Shown: one piece after another, positions 35,341-44,258 of the stretch
Position numbering within the stretch: the stretch's first letter is position 1
How the letters are laid out: every line of letters starts with the position of its first letter
Notes under the pieces: generated by a model
Told to the model about the DNA's origin: nothing
Databases searched by the model: none
Seen by the model: the letters and a program-made list of their open reading frames with translations, nothing else
Made by a program: the position numbers and the translations under genes
Source: Micromonospora echinospora
Lineage (GTDB): Bacteria > Actinomycetota > Actinomycetes > Mycobacteriales > Micromonosporaceae
Direction: 5' to 3'
DNA length: 64,000 nt
Assembly: GCF_014203425.1 (NCBI RefSeq)
Contig: NZ_JACHJC010000001.1
Span: forward strand, 6,217,501 to 6,281,500

Positions 35341-35865
35341 TCAGCCCTTGCCCGGGTGCAGCGCGCCGCAGTTGTCGCAGGTGCGGGCCTTCTCGTCGGC
35401 GTAGAACGCGGCGAAGACCGGGGGCAGGTCGGCGGCGATGTCGCGGACCTGCAACTCCACCTCGTGCACCTTCTGGTGGCACTCGGCGCAGTACCACTGG
35501 AACTTCTCCAGCGTGCCCTCCTCGCGGACCCGCTCGATCACCATACCGATCGAGCCGGCCTCGGGACGCTGCGGCGAGTGCGGGGTGTTGCGCGGCAGCA
35601 TCCACATCTGCCCCTCGCGCACGTGCACCGTACGCGGCCCCTCAGGGAGCATCAGGTTGACGTGCATGTTGCCCTTGACCTGGTAGAAGAACTCCTCGTA
35701 CGGGTCGACGTGGAAGTCCGTGCGCTGGTTCGGGCCGCCCACCACCATGACGATGAAGTCATCGCTGCCGGGCAGCATCTCCTTGTTGCCCACCGGGGGC
35801 TTGAGCAGGTGCTGGTTGTCGCCGATCCAGCCGGAGAAGCTGAACGGCTCGGCGATCTCACTCAT
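35341..35865 (-). CDS. nbaC: 3-Hydroxyanthranilate 3,4-dioxygenase
   Basis: A 174-residue cupin dioxygenase that opens the ring of 3-hydroxyanthranilate to ACMS. Iron ligands are His52, Glu58 ([12 protein letters not shown]) and His96 (NTPHSPQRP). The C-terminal rubredoxin-like site has Cys126, Cys129, Cys163 and Cys166 (CAEC and CDNC). Arginines for substrate binding (NQRTDFH; PRNTPH) are present. Its start overlaps the end of the RidA gene by 8 nt. Confidence 0.95.
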
Positions 35866-36283
35866 GGGAACCTCCCGACGGAAGTAGGGCGACGGCCTGC
35901 ATCTCGATCAGCAGATGCGGGTGCGGAAGCTGGTGTACGGCCACCGTGGTCCGGGTCGGGCCGGTGGCGTCGAAGAACTCGGCCCACACCTGGTTGTAGC
36001 CACCGAAGTCGTTCATGTTGACCAGGTAGCTGGTGACCTGCACCAGGTCGGTCAGGTCGGCGCCGACCGTGCGCAGCAGGTCCCGGATGTTCTCGATCAC
36101 GGCCCGGGTCTGCTCCCGGATGTCGAGGTCGGTGGTGCCGAGCTCGTCCACGGCGACGCCGGCGAACGTGTTGTCCGGCCGGCGCGACGACGTGCCGGAC
36201 ACGTAGACGAACCCGCCGGCCACCTTGACGTGCGGGAACGCGCCCCTCGGCACGGCCTTCCCGGCCACCACGCGGGCGGTCAC
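35858..36283 (-). CDS. RidA-family 2-aminomuconate deaminase
   Basis: A 141-residue RidA/YjgF protein beginning [14 protein letters not shown]. It keeps the catalytic Arg and Glu in [20 protein letters not shown], and [13 protein letters not shown] near the N-terminus. Pseudomonas 2-aminomuconate deaminase (AmnD/NbaF) belongs to this family, and the operon position between HAAO and oxalocrotonate decarboxylase supports that role over general enamine deaminase. The frame continues in phase upstream through the SARSEP repeat to GTG 36346, which overlaps the previous stop, so a 21-residue longer product is possible. GTG 36283 is the family-consistent start. Confidence 0.85.
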
Positions 36284-36293
36284 GGCAGAGCCG

Positions 36294-36347
36294 CTTTCCG
36301 TTCGCGACTGCGGGGCTCGCAAAACCGGCTCACTCCTCGCGCTCACG
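36294..36347 (-). repeat. SARSEP repeat copy 1 (decarboxylase/RidA junction)
   Basis: On the minus strand it begins CGTGAGCGCGAGGAGTGAGC, whose TGA is the stop of the oxalocrotonate decarboxylase gene, and ends near CGAACGGAAAG. It is open in the RidA frame and would add [19 protein letters not shown] to that protein. GTGA recurs 63 nt downstream at the normal RidA start. Confidence 0.9.
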
Positions 36348-37116
36348 ACAGTGCCTTCAGGGAGGCGGAACCGAGCTTCTCCACCGTGGCGCGCACGTGC
36401 GCGCCCGGTCGCAACGGCACCGCTGCGGTGGCCGCGCCGGCCAGGAACACCCAGCCCTTGCGCAGCCGGACGCCGTGCCGGCCGGCCAGCCGCAGGCCCT
36501 CGTCCAGGGCGCGACGCGGGTCGCCGAGGATGGCGGCGGTCGAGCCGACCTGCGCCACCCGCCCGTCGATCTCCAGCAGCACGCCGAGGTTGTCCAGCCC
36601 GTCCGGCACCGGCGACCAGGGGCCGACCACGAACGCGGCGGCCGAGGTGTTGTCGGCGATCACGTCCGGCAGGGAGAAGGTGAAGTTCGCGTACCGGGAG
36701 TCGATCAGCTCGATCGCCGGGGCGACCGCGCGTACCGCCCGGGTGAACGAGCCGACCGGTTCGCCCGGGTCGGGCAGCCGGTCCAGCAGGAACGCCACCT
36801 CCGGCTCGACGCGCGGGTGGATGAAGTCGCCGACGTCGACGGCGCCTCCGTCGGGCACCCGCATCACGTCGGTCAGCCGGCCCCAGATCACCTCGTCCAC
36901 GCCGACCTGGGCCATCTTGGCCTTGCTGGTGAGGCCCATCTTCAGGCCGACCAGCCGCTCGCCCCGGTCGAGGCGGCGCTTCACCAGCGCGGTCTGCACC
37001 GCGTACGCGGCGTCCACGTCGAGGCCCGTCTCGGCGGCGAGCTGCGGGATCGCGGTGGCGGTGTCGGCCGCCGCGCCCAGCTTCTCCGCGATGCCGGCGG
37101 TGTCCGGCCCGATCAT
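36343..37116 (-). CDS. 4-Oxalocrotonate decarboxylase (hydratase/decarboxylase family)
   Basis: A 257-residue member of the fumarylacetoacetase-like hydratase/decarboxylase family, with [32 protein letters not shown] (metal-binding Glu residues) and [14 protein letters not shown]. It should decarboxylate 2-oxo-3-hexenedioate (4-oxalocrotonate) to 2-oxopent-4-enoate. It is distinguished from its paralogue at 39097 by [11 protein letters not shown] in place of FQPDFGVL, as in DmpH versus DmpE. It overlaps the aldolase stop by ATGA, and its stop forms the start of repeat copy 1. Confidence 0.85.
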
Positions 37117-38168
37117 GAGTTCTCCTTAGCGGCCAGGTCCAGTGCCACGTCCACGATCATGTCCTCCTGGCCGCCGACCATCCGGCGACGGCCCAGCTCG
37201 ACCAGAATCGAGCGGACGTCCACGCCGTACTTGGCCGAGGCACGCTCGGCGTGACGCAGGAAGCTTGAGTAGACGCCCGCGTACCCCAGGGAGAGCGTCT
37301 CCCGGTCCACCTGGACCGGCCGGTCCTGCAAAGGGCGGACGAGGTCGTCGGCGGCGTCCATCAGCGCGAACACGTCGCAGCCGTGCTTCCAGCCGTGCAG
37401 CTCGGCGACCGCGACGAAGACCTCCAGCGGCGCGTTGCCCGCGCCCGCGCCCATGCCGGCGAGCGACGCGTCCACCCGGACGGTCCGCCCGGACGGCGAA
37501 CCGAGCGGGCCGTCGCCGAGGATCCGGCCGTGCTCGACCGCCAGCACGCTGTTCGCCACGCCCAGGGACAGGTTGTGGTGCGCGTGGATGCCGATCTGCG
37601 TCTGGGGTTCCAGCACCTGCCGGTACGCGTCGACGCGCTGCGCCACGTCCGACATCAGCAGCCGCCCGCCGGAGTCGGTGACGTAGACGCAGTGTGCGCC
37701 GTACGACTCCATGAGCTTGGCCTGCGCGGCCAGCCCGGCCGGGTCGTTGAGGTGCGACATCATCAGGAACCCGGAGACGTCCATGTCGTTCTCCCGGGCC
37801 CAGGCGATGTGCTGGGCCGAGATGTCCGCCTCGGTGCAGTGCGTGGCGATCCGGACGCTGGTCACGCCCAGCGCCTTCGCCGCCTTCAGGTCGGCGATGG
37901 TGCCGATGCCCGGCAGCAGCAGCGTGGTGAGCCGCGCGGTGGTGAGCACCTCGGCGGCGGCGGCGATCCAGTCCGCGTCGGCGGCGGCGCCGTGCCCGTA
38001 GTTGACGCTGGAACCGGCCAGGCCGTCGCCGTGCGCCACCTCGACAGCCGCCACGCCGGCCGCGTCGAGCGCGGCGGCGATGGTACGCACCTGGTCGACC
38101 GTGTAGCGGTGCCCGATGGCGTGCATGCCGTCGCGCAGCGTCACGTCCTGGATGTAGAGGTCGGTCAT
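37113..38168 (-). CDS. 4-Hydroxy-2-oxovalerate aldolase
   Basis: A 351-residue DRE-TIM metallolyase with [17 protein letters not shown] (metal-binding Asp and catalytic residues), [24 protein letters not shown] and the metal His pair in [14 protein letters not shown]. It splits 4-hydroxy-2-oxovalerate into pyruvate and acetaldehyde. The C-terminal DmpG-type communication domain is present. It forms a channelling complex with the acylating dehydrogenase encoded just upstream; the two genes overlap by ATGA (38165-38168). Confidence 0.95.
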
Positions 38169-39100
38169 CGCGCACTCACCTCCGTCGCGCGCAGCGCCAC
38201 CAGCCGCTCCGCGGTGCGCAGCGCGGCCGACGTCATGATGTCGAGGTTCCCGGCGTACGCGGGCAGGTAGTGCCCGGCGCCGGAGACCTCCAGGAACACC
38301 GACACCTGCAGGCCGGTGAAGTGCCGGCCGAGCACCGGTGCGTACGTGTCCACGCGGTCGAACTGCACGTCCTGCTTGAGCCGGTACCCGGGCACGTACT
38401 CCTGCACGGCCTTCACCATGTCGGCCACCGACGCGGCGATCGCGCCCCGGTCGGCGTCGGCGTCCGGGCACAGGCAGTAGACCGTGTCGCGCATCAGCAG
38501 CGGCGGGTCGGCCGGGTTCAGCACGATGATGGCCTTGCCGCGTTCGGCGCCGCCGACCACCTCGATCGCCCGCGCGGTGGTCTCGGTGAACTCGTCGATG
38601 TTGGCCCGGGTGCCCGGACCGGCCGACTTCGAGGCGATCGAGGCGACGATCTCCCCGTACGCGACGGGAGTGACCCGGCCGACCGCGTGCACGATCGGCA
38701 CCGTGGCCTGCCCGCCGCAGGTCACCATGTTGACGTTCGGCTCGCCCAGGTGCTCGTCGAGGTTCACCGGCGGCACCACGTACGGGCCGATCGCGGCCGG
38801 CGTCAGGTCGACAACGGTGCGCCCGTGCGCCCGCAGCACCTCGTCGTGCCGCTTGTGCGCGCCCGCCGAGGTGGCGTCGAAGACGAGCTGGACGTCCGCG
38901 AACTCGGGCAGCGCGACCAGCCCGTCGACACCCTCGGCGGTGGTGGTCACGCCGAGCCGGCGGGCCCGGGCCAGACCGTCCGAGGCCGGGTCGATGCCGG
39001 CCATCGCCACCATGTGCAGGCTCTCACTGAGCCGCAGCACCTTGATCATCAGATCGGTGCCGATGTTGCCCGACCCGAGCACCGCCACTCCGACAGTCAT
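38165..39100 (-). CDS. Acetaldehyde dehydrogenase (acylating)
   Basis: A 311-residue MhpF/DmpF-type enzyme with the NAD-binding [15 protein letters not shown], catalytic Cys in [18 protein letters not shown] and the [12 protein letters not shown] sequence. It oxidises acetaldehyde to acetyl-CoA, completing tryptophan carbon recovery. It overlaps the hydratase stop (39097-39100) and the aldolase start, both by ATGA, so the three are translationally coupled. Confidence 0.95.
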
Positions 39101-39894
39101 GACGTTCCCTCCGTCGAGAAACAGGTACGCACCGAGCCGAGCCCGGAGATGCGCGCCTCGTACGCGGCGCCGGGCGTGACCGGCACCATCGGCCCGAGCG
39201 CGCCGGAGAGCACCACGTCACCCGCGCGCAGCGGGTCACCGGCGCGGGCCATCGTGCCGACCAGCCACTGCAACGCGTGCAGCGGATTGCCGAGGCAGGC
39301 CGCGCCCGCGCCGACCGAGACCTGCTCCCCGGCGTGCTCCAGCACCATGCCGCACAGCCGCAGGTCCACGTCGGCGAGCCGCCGGGGCGCGGTGCCGAGC
39401 ACGAACAGCCCGCTGGAGGCGTTGTCCGCCACCGTGTCGACGATGGAGATGTCCCAGTCGGCGATCCGCGAGTCGACGATCTCGATGGCCGGCAGCACGT
39501 GGTCCACCGCCCGGATCAGGTCGACTGTGGTGACCCGCTCGTCCGGCAGGTCCGCGCCGAGCACGAAGGCGATCTCCGCCTCCACCCGCGGTTGGAGCAG
39601 CCGCCCGATCGGCACCTCGACGCCGTCGCCGACGGCCATGTCGTCGAAGAGCACCCCGAAGTCGGGCTGGAAGACGCCGAAGCTCTCCTGCACGGTTCGC
39701 GACGTCAGGCCGATCTTCGCGCCGACGCGGCGGTGCCCCTTGCCCAGCCGCTGTCGGGTGTAGACCTGCTGCACCTGGTACGCGGCCTCGACGTCGCCCT
39801 CGGGCAGCAGCCGGCCGCGCAGCGGCGGGCAGGGTTTGCCCTCCTGCCGGGCCACTGCGAGTTCCCGGTTGGCGGCCTCGATGTCCACGGTCAT
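39097..39894 (-). CDS. 2-Oxopent-4-enoate hydratase
   Basis: A 265-residue hydratase with [46 protein letters not shown] and [14 protein letters not shown], the DmpE/MhpD pattern. It adds water to 2-oxopent-4-enoate. ATG 39894 with GAGGAA six nt upstream is preferred. An in-frame ATG at 39972 directly overlaps the end of the repeat mini-frame (ATGA 39969-39972) and would add 26 basic residues, unlike any family member I know. Confidence 0.88.
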
Positions 39895-39982
39895 GGCGGT
39901 TCCTCGCTTACGTCGCTGGGGATTCCGGCCATTCTGCCCACCGCGCGCGCCCGCGCCAGTCTTCGCGCTCATGCTGAGCCAC

Positions 39983-40035
39983 CCTTCGTTCGCGACTGCG
40001 GGGCTCGCAACACCGGCTCACTCCTCGCGCTCACG
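39983..40035 (-). repeat. SARSEP repeat copy 2 (dehydrogenase/hydratase junction)
   Basis: It begins at the TGA stop of the aminomuconate semialdehyde dehydrogenase (40031-40034 reads GTGA). From its GTG a 21-codon frame [19 protein letters not shown] runs to a TGA at 39969-39971 that overlaps an ATG. The following bases ATGAGCGCGAAGACT resemble the start of the repeat itself, so a degenerate second end is present. Confidence 0.88.
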
Positions 40036-41536
40036 TCAAGTCCACGCAGACGTTTGTGAGTTCGGAGTAGAAGTCGAGCGAGTGCACGCCGCCCTCGCGG
40101 CCGACACCCGACGCCTTCACCCCGCCGAACGGGGTCCGCAGGTCGCGCAGGAACCAGGTGTTCACCCAGACGATGCCCGCGTCGAGCCGGGCGCCGGCCC
40201 GGTGCGCCCGGCCCACGTCCCGCGTCCACACCGTCGCGGCCAGGCCGTAGTCGGTGCCGTTGGCGAGCGCGAACGCCTCGTCCTCGTCGTCGAACGGCGC
40301 GACGTGCACCACCGGGCCGAAGATCTCCTCCTGGTTGGTGCGGGCGTCCGCGCCGAGCCCGGTGAGCACCGTCGGCTGCACGTACGCCCCGCCGTCGCGG
40401 CCGTCGCCGAAGCGCGGCGTGCCGCCGCCCGCGCGGACCTCGGCGCCCTCGGTGCGGGCCAGCGCGTAGTGGCCGAGCACCTTGTCCCGGTGCCCGTGCG
40501 AGATCAGCGGCATGTTCGCCGTCGCCTCGTCGTCCGGCCAGCCGTACGCCAGTTCGTCGGCGCGCTTGGCCAGCCGCGCGGTGAACTCCTCGAACACCGG
40601 CCGCTGCACGTAGATGCGCTCGGTGCAGAGACAGACCTGGCCGCCGTTGGTGAAGCTGGACCGCACCGAGCCGGCGACCGCCGCGTCCAGGTCGGCGTCG
40701 GCGAAGACCAGGCCGGCGTTCTTGCCGCCCAGCTCGAAGCTGACCGCCTTCACCCCGTCGGCGGCGGCGCGCATGATCGCGCTGCCGGTGGCCGACTCGC
40801 CGGTGAACGTGATCGCGTCCACGCCCGGGTGGCGGGTCAGGTGCTCGCCGGCCGAGCCCGGGCCGAAGCCGTGCACCAGGTTGAACACGCCGTCGGGCAC
40901 GCCGGCCGCGGCCATCACCTCGGCCAGCAGCGTGGCCGACGCGGGGGTCTCCTCGCTGGGCTTGACCACCACGGCGTTGCCGCAGGCCAGAGCCGGGGCG
41001 ACCTTCCAGGTGAGCAGCAGCAGCGGAAGGTTCCACGGCACGATCACGGCGACCACGCCGACCGGCTTGCGGACCGCGTAGTTGAGCGCCCGGCCGCCGG
41101 TCGGGGTGACAGTGGTGAACGACTCGGTGGGCGCGGTCGCGACGATCTCGGCGAAGGCGCGGAAGTTGGCCGCGCCGCGCGGGATGTCGAGCGTCCGGGC
41201 CTGCGAGATGGCCTTGCCGGTGTCCGCCACCTCGGCGGCCACCAGGTCGTCGAAGCGCCGTTCCAGCTCGTCGGCGACCCGGCGCAGCACCTCGGCCCGT
41301 TCCCGCTCACCCATCCGGCCCCACGGGCCGCGCAGCGCCGCCCGGGCGGCCGCGACCGCGTCGTCCACCGTGGACTGCGACGCCTCGACCACCTCGAACA
41401 CCGGCTCGCCGGTGACCGGGCTGCGCTTGGTGAACCGGGAGCCGGCGTCGACGAACTCGCCGCCGACGAAGTTGCGCAGCAGGCCGGGGCCGTCCGGCGC
41501 GTGCCCGGCCATCAGCCGGGGATCCCAGAGCGTCAT
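40031..41536 (-). CDS. 2-Aminomuconate-6-semialdehyde dehydrogenase
   Basis: A 501-residue aldehyde dehydrogenase with the NAD-binding VIVPWNLPLLLLTWKVAPAL, FTGESATGS, catalytic Glu in SFELGGKNAG and catalytic Cys in TNGGQVCLCTERIYV. Similarity to the 2-hydroxymuconic semialdehyde dehydrogenase/AMSDH clade and the operon position identify the substrate. Its start overlaps the KMO stop by ATGA (41533-41536). Its stop is part of repeat copy 2. Confidence 0.92.
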   Translation of the reverse strand: MTLWDPRLMAGHAPDGPGLLRNFVGGEFVDAGSRFTKRSPVTGEPVFEVVEASQSTVDDAVAAARAALRGPWGRMGERERAEVLRRVADELERRFDDLVAAEVADTGKAISQARTLDIPRGAANFRAFAEIVATAPTESFTTVTPTGGRALNYAVRKPVGVVAVIVPWNLPLLLLTWKVAPALACGNAVVVKPSEETPASATLLAEVMAAAGVPDGVFNLVHGFGPGSAGEHLTRHPGVDAITFTGESATGSAIMRAAADGVKAVSFELGGKNAGLVFADADLDAAVAGSVRSSFTNGGQVCLCTERIYVQRPVFEEFTARLAKRADELAYGWPDDEATANMPLISHGHRDKVLGHYALARTEGAEVRAGGGTPRFGDGRDGGAYVQPTVLTGLGADARTNQEEIFGPVVHVAPFDDEDEAFALANGTDYGLAATVWTRDVGRAHRAGARLDAGIVWVNTWFLRDLRTPFGGVKASGVGREGGVHSLDFYSELTNVCVDLT

Positions 41537-42861
41537 CGCCGCCGCCCCAGCGCCGCGCGGACCCCACCGGCGAGCAGCGCCACCGCGCCGGCCGCGACCG
41601 CGCCGACGACCGCGTACTGCGCGCGCACCCGGCGGCGCACCTGCGCGTACGGGGTGGTGGAGAAGGAGACCAGCTCGTACTGGGAGACGTAGCGGCCGGG
41701 CAGGACGCGCTCCAGCGCGTGCTCGACCTGCTTGCGGGTGCGGAACACCGGTGAGGCGACCTTGTCCCGCATCTCCACGAAGTTCGCCAGCGCCATCCGG
41801 GCGATCGCCTCCGCGTTGTCCTGCCGGCGGTGCTGGTAGAGCGGCAACGCGGCGGCCCACTCGTCGTCGCACTCGTCCAGGCAGCGGTCCAGCTCGACCA
41901 CGTCCTCGAACGCGCAGTTCGCGCCCTGGCCGTAGAACGGCACGATGGCGTGCGCGGCGTCGCCGATCAGGCCGACCTTCCCGGCCACCTGCCACGGCGT
42001 GCAGCGCACCGTGCCGAGCAGGCCGACCGGGTTGTGCTGGTAGTCGTCGACCAGGTTGGGGGCCAGCGGGACCAGGTCCGGGTAGTGGGTGGCGAAGAAC
42101 CCCTCGATCGCCGCCGGGCTGCTCAGCGACGCGAAGCTGCGCGTGCCGTGGGTGGGCCAGAACAGCGTGCAGGTGAAGGAGCGGTCCGGGTTCGGCAGCG
42201 CGATCATCATCGAGGTGCCGCGCGGCCAGATGTGCAGCGCGCCCGGGTCGAGCGCGAACTCCCCGCCCAGCGGCGGGATGGTCAGCTCCTTGTAGCCGTA
42301 GTCGAGGAAGTCGAGGCTCTCGGTCACTCCCCCGTACGCGAGCAGCTGCCCGCGCACCGCGGAGCCGGCGCCGTCGGCGCCGAGGATGACCGAGGCGGCG
42401 GCGGTGACCTTGCCCTGCGGGGTCTCGAACGTCATCTCGCCGCCGAGCGGGTCGAGGCCGACCAGCCGGTGGTCGAACGCGACCCGCACGTTCGGCAACG
42501 CGGCGGCGGCGTCGAGCAGCGCGTTGTTCAGCGCGCCCCGGCTGATCGAGTTGATCGCCCGGTCCCCGGAGCCGCTGTAGGACTGGAACTCCGGCTCACC
42601 CTCGACCGGGTGGATCATGCGGCCGCGCATCGGCAGCGCGTCCGCCATCACCTCGTCCTCCAGGCCGATGCGGCGCAGCGCGTCCAGGCCGCGCTCGGAC
42701 AGCGCCAGGTTGATCGAGCGGCCCCGCTCGGCGGTGCCGGCACGCGGGTCGGGCCGCCGCTCGTAGAGGGCCACCGGGTAGCCGCGCCGCGCCAGATAGC
42801 AGGCCAGCAGGCAGCCGGCCAGTCCGGCGCCGACCACAGCGATCTCGTCGCGCTCCGTCAC
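41533..42861 (-). CDS. kmo: Kynurenine 3-monooxygenase
   Basis: A 442-residue FAD monooxygenase with VVGAGLAGCLLACYLARRG, the NLALSERGLDAL motif typical of KMO, and GLIGDAAHAIVPFYGQGANC. It hydroxylates kynurenine to 3-hydroxykynurenine. A hydrophobic C-terminal segment (YAVVGAVAAGAVALLAGG) suggests membrane attachment, as in eukaryotic KMO. GTG 42861 follows GGAAGG, supplied by the 3' end of repeat copy 3. The repeat frame is in phase, so initiation at GTG 42921 would add about 20 residues. Confidence 0.94.
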   Translation of the reverse strand: MTERDEIAVVGAGLAGCLLACYLARRGYPVALYERRPDPRAGTAERGRSINLALSERGLDALRRIGLEDEVMADALPMRGRMIHPVEGEPEFQSYSGSGDRAINSISRGALNNALLDAAAALPNVRVAFDHRLVGLDPLGGEMTFETPQGKVTAAASVILGADGAGSAVRGQLLAYGGVTESLDFLDYGYKELTIPPLGGEFALDPGALHIWPRGTSMMIALPNPDRSFTCTLFWPTHGTRSFASLSSPAAIEGFFATHYPDLVPLAPNLVDDYQHNPVGLLGTVRCTPWQVAGKVGLIGDAAHAIVPFYGQGANCAFEDVVELDRCLDECDDEWAAALPLYQHRRQDNAEAIARMALANFVEMRDKVASPVFRTRKQVEHALERVLPGRYVSQYELVSFSTTPYAQVRRRVRAQYAVVGAVAAGAVALLAGGVRAALGRRR

Positions 42862-42869
42862 GTGCCTGC

Positions 42870-42922
42870 CTTCCGTTCGCGACTGCGGGGCTCGCAGAAC
42901 CGGCTCACTCCTCGCGCTCACG
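42870..42922 (-). repeat. SARSEP repeat copy 3 (kynU/kmo junction)
   Basis: It begins CGTGAGCGCGAGGAGTGAGC where TGA is the kynU stop, and ends CGCGAACGGAAGG. GTGA recurs exactly 60 nt downstream as the kmo start codon plus A, consistent with duplication of a former GTGA stop-start overlap. It is open in the kmo frame. Confidence 0.92.
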
Positions 42923-44258
42923 ATCCCTCCTTCTCAAACGTTGCCGCCAGCGCCTCGGCGACCCGCCAGCAGTCGTGGTACGTCGAGTAGAGCGGCACCG
43001 GGGCGAACCGGACGATGTCCGGCTCCCGGGCGTCGGCGACGACGCCGTGCTCGTGCCGCAGCCGCTTGGTCAGCTCGTTCGCGCTGCCCACCCAGCCGCC
43101 TTCCGTTCGCGACTGCGGGGCTCGCAGACCCGGCTCACTCCTCGCGCTCACGCCGATCCGGACGGAGAGCTGGCAGCCGCGCCGGGCCGGGTCGCGCGGG
43201 GTGACCACTGTGAGCGGGCGGCCCGGCGTGACCTCGTCGAGCAGCTGCTCCAGCCAGGCGGTGAGCCGCAGGCTGCGCTCGCGCAGCGCCGCCATGCCGA
43301 CGGAGTCGAACAGCTCCAGCGAGGTACGCACCGGGCCCATCGCGAAGATCGGCGGGTTGGAGATCTGCCACGCCTCGACGGTGGCCGGCGGCCGGGACAC
43401 CGGGGTCATCTCGAACCGGGTGGCCGCCTCGGTGCTCCACCAGCCCTCGAAGCGCTGGATGGACGGGTCGCCGAGGTGCCGCTCGTGGACGAAGACGCCG
43501 CCAAGCGCGCCCGGGCCGGAGTTGAGGTACTTGTAGGAGCACCAGGCGGCGAAGTCGACGTCCCAGTCGTGCAGCGCCAGCGGGACGTTGCCGGCGGCGT
43601 GCGCCAGGTCCCAGCCGACGACGGCGCCCGCGGCCCGCCCGGCGGCGGTGATGGTGGGGATGTCCATCAGCTCGCCGGTCAGGTAGTTCACGCCGCCGAG
43701 CATCAGCAGCGCCACGGTGTGGCCCTCGCGGGCCAGGAAGTCCAGCACGTCCTCGGTGCCGAGCGTGTCGGAGCCGGGGCGCGGCTTGAGGCGCACGACA
43801 GTGGTGTCCGGGTCCAGGCCGTGGAAGCGGGCCTGGCTGCGCACGGCGTAGCTGTCCGAGGGGAACGCGCTGTCCTCGATGACGATGCGGGTGCGCTCGC
43901 CCTCCGGCCGGTAGAAGCTGACCATCAGCAGGTGCAGGTTGACGGTGAGGGAGTTCATCACCACGGTCTCGGCGGGCAGCGCGCCGACCAGGCGGGCGGC
44001 CGGCGCGGTCAGCAGCTCGTGGTACGGCAGCCAGGGCCGCTCCGACTCCAGGTGCCCCTCCACGCCCAGGCGCTGCCAGGCGTCCAGGTCGGCGAGGAGC
44101 TCGTCCCGGGTGGCCCGGGGCTGCAGGCCGAGCGAGTTGCCGGCCAGGTACGCCGTGTCGGGGTAGCGCCCGCCGTCGGCGGGTGGGATGTGGAACAGGT
44201 GCCGGTGTCCCGGGTCGGCGGCGTCGCGGCGGAGGGCTTCGTTCTCGGGGGTGTGCAT
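42918..44258 (-). CDS. kynU: Kynureninase with an in-frame repeat insertion
   Basis: A 446-residue PLP enzyme that cleaves 3-hydroxykynurenine to 3-hydroxyanthranilate and alanine. Key features are GNSLGLQPRATR near the N-terminus, the Asp of DLAHAAGNVPL, the PLP lysine Lys243 in CSYKYLNSGPGALGG, and the C-terminal PDIVRFAPVPLYSTYHDCW. Between SVRIG and SANELTKRL lie 22 extra codons, [19 protein letters not shown] plus WVG, which are repeat copy 4. Homologues join these strands directly. ATG 44258 starts 14 nt after kynA ends. Activity of the interrupted enzyme is plausible but not certain. Confidence 0.94.
   Translation of the reverse strand: MHTPENEALRRDAADPGHRHLFHIPPADGGRYPDTAYLAGNSLGLQPRATRDELLADLDAWQRLGVEGHLESERPWLPYHELLTAPAARLVGALPAETVVMNSLTVNLHLLMVSFYRPEGERTRIVIEDSAFPSDSYAVRSQARFHGLDPDTTVVRLKPRPGSDTLGTEDVLDFLAREGHTVALLMLGGVNYLTGELMDIPTITAAGRAAGAVVGWDLAHAAGNVPLALHDWDVDFAAWCSYKYLNSGPGALGGVFVHERHLGDPSIQRFEGWWSTEAATRFEMTPVSRPPATVEAWQISNPPIFAMGPVRTSLELFDSVGMAALRERSLRLTAWLEQLLDEVTPGRPLTVVTPRDPARRGCQLSVRIGVSARSEPGLRAPQSRTEGGWVGSANELTKRLRHEHGVVADAREPDIVRFAPVPLYSTYHDCWRVAEALAATFEKEGS
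43099..43152 (-). repeat. SARSEP repeat copy 4, inside kynU
   Basis: Same sequence as the junction copies (CGTGAGCGCGAGGAGTGAGC ... GGAAGGCGG) but placed within the kynureninase coding sequence in the GTG AGC GCG phase. The total insert is 66 nt, so the frame is kept. It encodes residues near 370-391 in the C-terminal domain. Confidence 0.92.

Follow-up and report, generated by a model that had tools for sequence, protein, structure and literature searches.

The kynurenine operon of Micromonospora echinospora (GCF_014203425.1, a genome of 7.13 Mb in one contig) raises the question of how a short repeat came to stand exactly on the stop-start junctions between its genes. The operon lies on the reverse strand of the window, the 64,000-nucleotide stretch analysed here (NZ_JACHJC010000001.1, positions 6,217,501 to 6,281,500). 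A first-pass annotation had described three copies of the repeat, each with a GTGA whose TGA is the stop codon of the upstream gene, and had proposed that the repeat duplicated the target bases when it entered. The placement was confirmed and the duplication was not. The repeat is likely to be a short non-autonomous mobile element which inserts at translation starts, mostly at NTGA stop-start overlaps, and brings its own GTGA, an open frame and a replacement Shine-Dalgarno sequence.

The repeat unit and its copies in the window

The repeat unit measures about 59-63 nt, counted from the element's GTGA to the last base before the next start or target, and consists of a near-invariant 47-nt core followed by a tail of variable length, purine-rich from +47. 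Four matches to the conserved sequence CGTGAGCGCGAGGAGTGAGC were found in the window, all on the reverse strand (36328-36347, 40016-40035, 42903-42922 and 43133-43152), the chance expectation with up to three mismatches being 0.04. A scan with a second conserved block, allowing up to two mismatches, returned the same four copies only. All three copies described earlier are present; a fourth, inserted in frame within kynU, had been overlooked.

36284..36346, reverse strand: copy 1, 63 nt, preceded by hydratase/decarboxylase 2 and followed by the Rid-family gene, whose frame its GTG shares (phase 0); empty site ATGA in Micromonospora chalcea
36280..36283, reverse strand: right GTGA, at which the Rid gene starts, displaced by copy 1
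39973..40034, reverse strand: copy 2, 62 nt, preceded by 2-hydroxymuconic semialdehyde dehydrogenase and followed by a leader or N-terminal extension of hydratase 1; phase 2; ATGA in M. chalcea
42862..42921, reverse strand: copy 3, 60 nt, preceded by kynU and followed by kmo, whose frame its GTG shares (phase 0); ATGA in M. chalcea
43092..43151, reverse strand: copy 4, 60 nt, an in-frame 20-codon insert within kynU; M. chalcea reads GTGGGC at the same place, with no insert

The upstream open reading frames (ORFs) end at 36343, 40031 and 42918, that is, on the TGA of the GTGA in copies 1-3, and the downstream ORFs start on an RTGA 63, 62 and 60 nt past this GTGA, both as first described. The mini-ORF of copy 2 comprises 21 codons and terminates on the next ATGA.

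Folding showed no excess over shuffled sequences (z between -0.52 and 1.66 for RNA and between 0.94 and 1.23 for DNA), and an Rfam search of window positions 35800-43600 gave no match up to E 0.1; a structured RNA was rejected on these grounds. Within the core, positions +22 to +24 (e.g. window 42897-42899) are variable and the neighbouring bases nearly fixed. The orthologous copies of M. echinospora and M. chalcea at site L017 are one base apart within this triplet. Tandem copies mostly have an identical triplet, L183 being an exception, which points to local duplication.

Placement on stop-start overlaps

The placement was examined beyond the operon in M. echinospora and three congeners, from which 74 arrays (119 copies) of 1 to 6 copies each were taken. 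Two arrays (L122 and one in L153) were excluded because the locus end was too close, and the weak, false-looking matches L021, L028 and L116 were retained among the 72 evaluable ones. Coding was judged by third-position GC, with annotation unused, and common sites of related genomes enter these counts several times. In 55 of the 72 arrays a coding-looking frame terminates on the left TGA, and a stop of this kind is present at 138 of the 3137 remaining RTGA sites of these loci; the link with stop codons noticed in the operon thus holds across four genomes. A coding-looking start stands on the downstream RTGA in 58 arrays (11 more have another start), compared with 1574 of the 3137 sites, a test that is weak when taken singly, the stop test and the joint test being informative. 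Stop and RTGA start occur jointly in 43/72 arrays and 61/3137 other sites. A preference for NTGA sites is supported.

A second set consisted of 81 operons, namely the window and the best 80 of 171 operon regions from named genomes retrieved by a kmo search, with ten junctions each. It contains 41 arrays at six of the ten junctions, three of which are those of the window. The arrays per junction, and the in-frame NTGA overlaps among the unoccupied operons, are given below.

kynU/kmo: 10 arrays; overlap in 64/71
aldDH/hyd1: 3 arrays; overlap in 63/76
hyd1/acDH: 10 arrays; overlap in 60/67
acDH/aldolase: 3 arrays; overlap in 71/73
aldolase/hyd2: 7 arrays; overlap in 66/69
hyd2/ridA: 8 arrays; overlap in 47/69

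The earlier proposal that the window junctions were once GTGA or ATGA overlaps is supported by these repeat-free relatives. The hao/acmsd junction has an overlap in 1/77 and no repeat. The upstream gene ends on the left GTGA in 30 of the 41 arrays (in L056, on that of the second copy), on the right RTGA in 6 and on the second TGA of the element (+14) in 3; in the remaining 2, L043 and L044, it stops short of the array. M. chalcea, which is 97% identical over the operon and stands closest to M. echinospora among these genomes, is devoid of all four window copies and reads ATGA at each of the three window junctions. Three other M. echinospora sites are also empty there (GTGA, ATGA and ATGA), so that all six M. 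chalcea junction sites compared are empty NTGA overlaps.

Three further arrays share one site inside kynU (the window, L041 and L075), where there is no stop-start overlap and M. chalcea reads GTGG. The preference for the start-stop tetranucleotide suggested by the first-pass annotation is qualified on two counts, the overlap being neither present at this site nor, as discussed below, sufficient elsewhere.

The point of entry

The left tetranucleotide is GTGA in 41/41 operon arrays, while their nearest empty relatives read ATGA in 29 cases, GTGA in 11 and TTGA in one. The four-genome set has GTGA here in 67/72 arrays, ATGA in 3 and another sequence in 2. The constancy of GTGA despite mostly ATGA empty sites indicates that the left GTGA belongs to the element. 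Duplication of the target would preserve the target's first base on the left, and is contradicted by the constant GTGA, on account of which a literal 4-bp target duplication was rejected. Transposition duplicating the target tetranucleotide is consequently held to be very improbable, even if two NTGA flank most junction copies (the right RTGA is present in 35/41 arrays, as ATGA in 24 and GTGA in 11, and absent in 6) and longer identical flanks occur at L017 and at M. chalcea L169. At these places (L017:2684, reverse strand, and L169:1500) GAGGTGATCCGGTGAGC, which is longer than the NTGA found elsewhere, stands on both sides of the repeat; a longer duplication spanning the Shine-Dalgarno sequence was found at this one site and is absent at most others. 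On the simpler reading, the element carries a GTGA of its own and inserts directly 5' of the target NTGA.

Reading phase and ribosome sites

The intervals from the GTG to the next RTGA start or tandem copy fall into phases 2, 0 and 1 in the proportion 77:22:3 (102 intervals, four-genome set). The probability of 3/102 in phase 1 under a one-third expectation is 4e-14, a value that is indicative only, as the copies are related. Among the 35 operon arrays with an in-frame RTGA start the proportion is 22:13:0. A mini-ORF in phase 2 terminates on the TGA of the next start, and one in phase 0 is fused in frame with the next gene. A stop within the first 15 codons occurs in 2 of 112 first copies, and subclasses with a different peptide also keep the frame open, so that what seems to count is the open frame and its phase rather than the peptide. 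These features suggest that translation can probably pass through the element, which would itself be translated.

The mean energy of the duplex with the 16S tail is -7.39 kcal/mol upstream of the left GTGA (61 arrays) and -9.11 upstream of the right RTGA (48), compared with -3.94 upstream of 1500 RTGA sampled from the same loci (element sites being eligible for the draw) and -3.59 upstream of the element's internal GTGA. The corresponding values in the operon set are -8.30 on the left (41), -10.11 on the right (35) and -8.95 at empty overlaps (568). The most conserved flank in a logo of 78 class I arrays is the GG at -9 and -8, with 0.9 bits each. The element appears, from these complementarities, to take over the ribosome site of the host gene and to supply another.

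The phase rule could also arise if insertion were nearly indiscriminate and selection retained copies at starts and in a harmless phase. The persistence of phases 2 and 0 with phase 1 nearly missing, the in-frame insert in kynU and the abundance of overlaps in these operons are all in keeping with such filtering. However, the left TGA lies exactly on the upstream stop in 30 of the 41 arrays, though frame-neutral positions a few codons away would survive too, and all 49 copies at the operon loci of relatives share the orientation of the operon. Selection as the whole explanation is therefore considered rather unlikely, and the targeting of start sites is presumably intrinsic, beyond selection alone.

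The replacement Shine-Dalgarno sequence and the phase rule might equally be expected of a domesticated device that tunes translational coupling for the benefit of the host, as might a tandem copy number that varies between species at shared sites (site L013 has one copy in M. echinospora and three in M. marina). This is quite improbable, since even the most often occupied junctions hold the repeat in 10 of the 81 operons and the peptide varies between subclasses.

Distribution

The M. echinospora genome contains 37 matches, in arrays of up to three copies among those tabulated, M. marina 48 and M. chalcea 6. A match was found in 56 of 121 Micromonosporaceae genomes and 23 of 44 genera (E 1e-3; up to seven candidate places were scored per genome, and copy numbers are lower bounds). 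In wider samples at E 1e-6, matches occurred in 6 of 61 genomes of the order, all Micromonospora, with none in the 55 genomes of other families, and in 2 of 148 genomes of the class, both Micromonospora, with none in the 146 outside the genus. Among the sampled genomes the repeat is thus found only in Micromonosporaceae. It was seen in none of 50,697 phage records and in one of 72,556 plasmid records, that of a Micromonospora plasmid. In the NCBI annotation of plasmid pLB1 of M. terminaliae, one coding sequence ends on the element's first TGA and the next starts 59 nt past the element's GTG, which is in independent agreement with the stop/start placement.

Mobility and history

On a tree of the 81 operons the 44 arrays require at least 40 changes. 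The internal kynU site is occupied at three separate places of this tree, the copies of the window and of L041 having the same core, and the copies at this site may reflect exchange between species. M. marina carries copies at several M. echinospora sites.

Several observations weigh against insertion as described here. The changes on the tree may be losses, gains and losses being not fully separable. The Rid, L013, L007 and L015 sites are occupied in M. echinospora and M. marina and empty in M. chalcea, the nearer relative, and L011 is occupied in all three species; these patterns imply that loss, interspecies recombination or repeated insertion also occur. An NTGA overlap is present, with zero repeats, at kynA/kynU (54/81), kmo/aldDH (77/79) and ridA/hao (65/77), which makes the overlap insufficient by itself. 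The left join is imperfect at L047, L051 and L059, and five arrays of the four-genome set depart from the left GTGA. The first base of the right NTGA equals that of the nearest empty relative in 18/35 arrays, about the base-frequency expectation, so that it failed as a record of the target and the right side gives no independent proof that the right NTGA is the old target. Start codons switching too fast between these species may explain the poor agreement. Finally, no mover was found in searches for Y1_Tnp and RVT_1, other transposase families not having been searched.

The occupancy patterns just given would suit old insertions, inherited or recombined between species and frequently lost, rather than recent movement. 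Such a history is regarded as unlikely in view of the 40 changes required for 44 arrays and of NTGA overlaps that also stand at empty sites far outside the occupied groups; in addition, the empty sites are often ATGA, which would not be expected from simple slippage between NTGA copies.

Y1_Tnp and RVT_1 gave no match in the M. echinospora genome, nor in the repeat-bearing genomes G003, G045, G082 and G096. Across the 121 genomes neither was associated with the repeat, Y1_Tnp occurring in 15/56 genomes with it and 17/65 without, and RVT_1 in 30/56 and 30/65, respectively; Y1 transposase and reverse transcriptase are therefore unsupported as movers. Single-strand movement of the IS200/IS605 or REP kind, in which a Y1 transposase would insert the element 3' of TCAY in the opposite strand, would suit the geometry (a tetranucleotide target, no duplication, a single orientation) and is nevertheless highly unlikely given these counts and the lack of a fold beyond that of shuffled sequences.

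Proposed mode of insertion

The anatomy of the repeat, its empty sites, the constant left GTGA, the phase rule and the Shine-Dalgarno complementarity on both sides can be read from the DNA itself, and are best accommodated by the probable start-site insertion introduced above. The element would enter between the target's Shine-Dalgarno sequence and its NTGA. Its own GTGA would then capture that Shine-Dalgarno sequence and provide the stop of the upstream gene; it would contribute an open frame of about 20 codons, and its purine-rich tail would act as a new Shine-Dalgarno sequence for the displaced start. Ribosomes would either terminate and re-initiate at two -4-nt overlaps where there had been one, or continue through the element without a change of frame, and the translation of the operon would be maintained despite the insertion. 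Movement would presumably be due to a trans-acting recombinase or transposase reading both conserved blocks.

The genes of the operon

The genes adjoining the copies in the window are the following.

42918..44258, reverse strand: kynU (kynureninase), ending on the TGA of copy 3; TIGR01814, 381 bits, cut-off 246.4
41533..42861, reverse strand: kmo-like FAD monooxygenase; matches to general FAD-monooxygenase NCBIfam models only, all below cut-off
40031..41536, reverse strand: 2-hydroxymuconic semialdehyde dehydrogenase, ending on the TGA of copy 2; TIGR03216, 805.5 bits, cut-off 693.25
39097..39972, reverse strand: hydratase 1, with an in-frame ATG upstream, which coincides with the right ATGA of copy 2; top match short of the cut-off
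36343..37116, reverse strand: hydratase/decarboxylase 2, ending on the TGA of copy 1; top match short of the cut-off
35858..36283, reverse strand: Rid-family gene, downstream of copy 1; top match short of the cut-off

Ten proteins of the operon, the aldolase excluded, were compared with NCBIfam. Kynureninase, 2-hydroxymuconic semialdehyde dehydrogenase, acetylating acetaldehyde dehydrogenase and 3-hydroxyanthranilate 3,4-dioxygenase scored above the cut-off; tryptophan 2,3-dioxygenase, both hydratases, the Rid protein and the kmo protein scored below it, and the tenth gave no NCBIfam match. The name kynurenine operon is a fair one.

Other repeats at the same junctions

A second family, an 80-nt repeat starting with ATGAGCGAGCG, also lies between RTGA stop-start sites. 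It has six matches in M. echinospora (L155-L160) and occurs in relatives at kynU/kmo, aldDH/hyd1 and hyd1/acDH (L042:13705, L043:12830, L054:9914, L055:12821, L078:12821 and L084:9911). In the 14 rows the right RTGA stands at 80 nt in 11 and at 77 nt in one, one being misaligned and one running past the locus end, and the mini-ORF has 26-27 codons in the 12 scorable rows. The layout and part of one motif are common to this family and subclass II of the 59-63 nt element.

At the hyd2/ridA junction, 12 of the 81 loci (e.g. L055:16476, L066:15261 and L042:16594) have a conserved GGCTCCGGGCGGTCAGGCTTGATCCCT inside an inverted repeat, GGGTTCCGGGCAGCCC...GGGCTGCCCGGAACCC, for which no Rfam match was obtained in three loci searched. 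In L051, L056, L057, L064 and L079 the kynA/kynU junction contains direct repeats of about 30 nt (e.g. GAGTCGCACCGCCTCGCC), in frame and close to where kynU starts, which apparently lengthen the N-terminus.

Comparison with known systems

REP/BIME sequences, which are associated with RAYT (Y1) transposases, are short, dispersed, sometimes tandem and non-autonomous. The Micromonospora repeat resembles them in all these respects and differs in having no hairpin signal, in the lack of a Y1_Tnp match in the M. echinospora genome and in its position in translated junctions. Rickettsia palindromic elements are short repeats translatable in frame within genes, and the copy within kynU is likewise an in-frame insert within a gene; in contrast to them, the Micromonospora repeat has no palindrome or fold signal and lies mainly at gene junctions.

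The closest likeness is to a little-studied kind of element, the mycobacterial interspersed repetitive units (MIRUs), reportedly described by Supply et al. in 1997. No paper on such repeats in Micromonosporaceae turned up in the literature searches, most subscription papers being outside their scope, and one apparent "MIRU-like" match was a Trichodesmium species name. MIRUs are 40-100 bp repeats found at 41 places in M. tuberculosis (PMC2734929); they seem to be mobile and to have inserted at start codons, and the ORF inside them is coupled at -4 nt to the gene that follows (PMC12548453). As in these accounts, the Micromonospora element is a short repeat of about 59-63 nt which is scattered over dozens of sites on the chromosome (37 matches), single or in tandem, with a variable copy number (arrays of 1 to 6, differing at shared sites); start-codon insertion with a -4 nt coupled ORF has its counterpart in the 77 of 102 phase-2 intervals, read from sequence alone. 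The element was found only in Micromonosporaceae, and is likened to MIRUs by layout, from their descriptions. Documented here for the Micromonospora element are a left GTGA of its own, the Shine-Dalgarno sequence in its tail, the phase rule and, in kynU, an in-frame insert. In layout it seems to work like a MIRU; kinship by descent is a separate matter.

It is tempting to speculate, as a tentative possibility, that start sites are a general safe harbour for a class of mobile elements of actinobacteria, where an undescribed recombinase would recognise the Shine-Dalgarno sequence together with NTGA. At least two Micromonospora families (59-63 nt and 80 nt) would then exist besides the MIRUs, all being translational relays with their own start codon, a phase-2 mini-ORF and a replacement ribosome-binding site (tested in the first family only), and spreading through operons that stay unbroken, with occasional N-terminal or internal extensions.

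In the literature found, this mode of insertion is described only for the mycobacterial MIRUs, and the empty-site, phase and ribosome-site evidence presented here adds a second bacterial family. It illustrates how mobile DNA can enter metabolic operons with translation probably continuing, and how it may add residues to proteins. The many sequenced species of Micromonosporaceae make each step testable, and the question of what finds start codons in DNA becomes testable in non-pathogenic soil bacteria.

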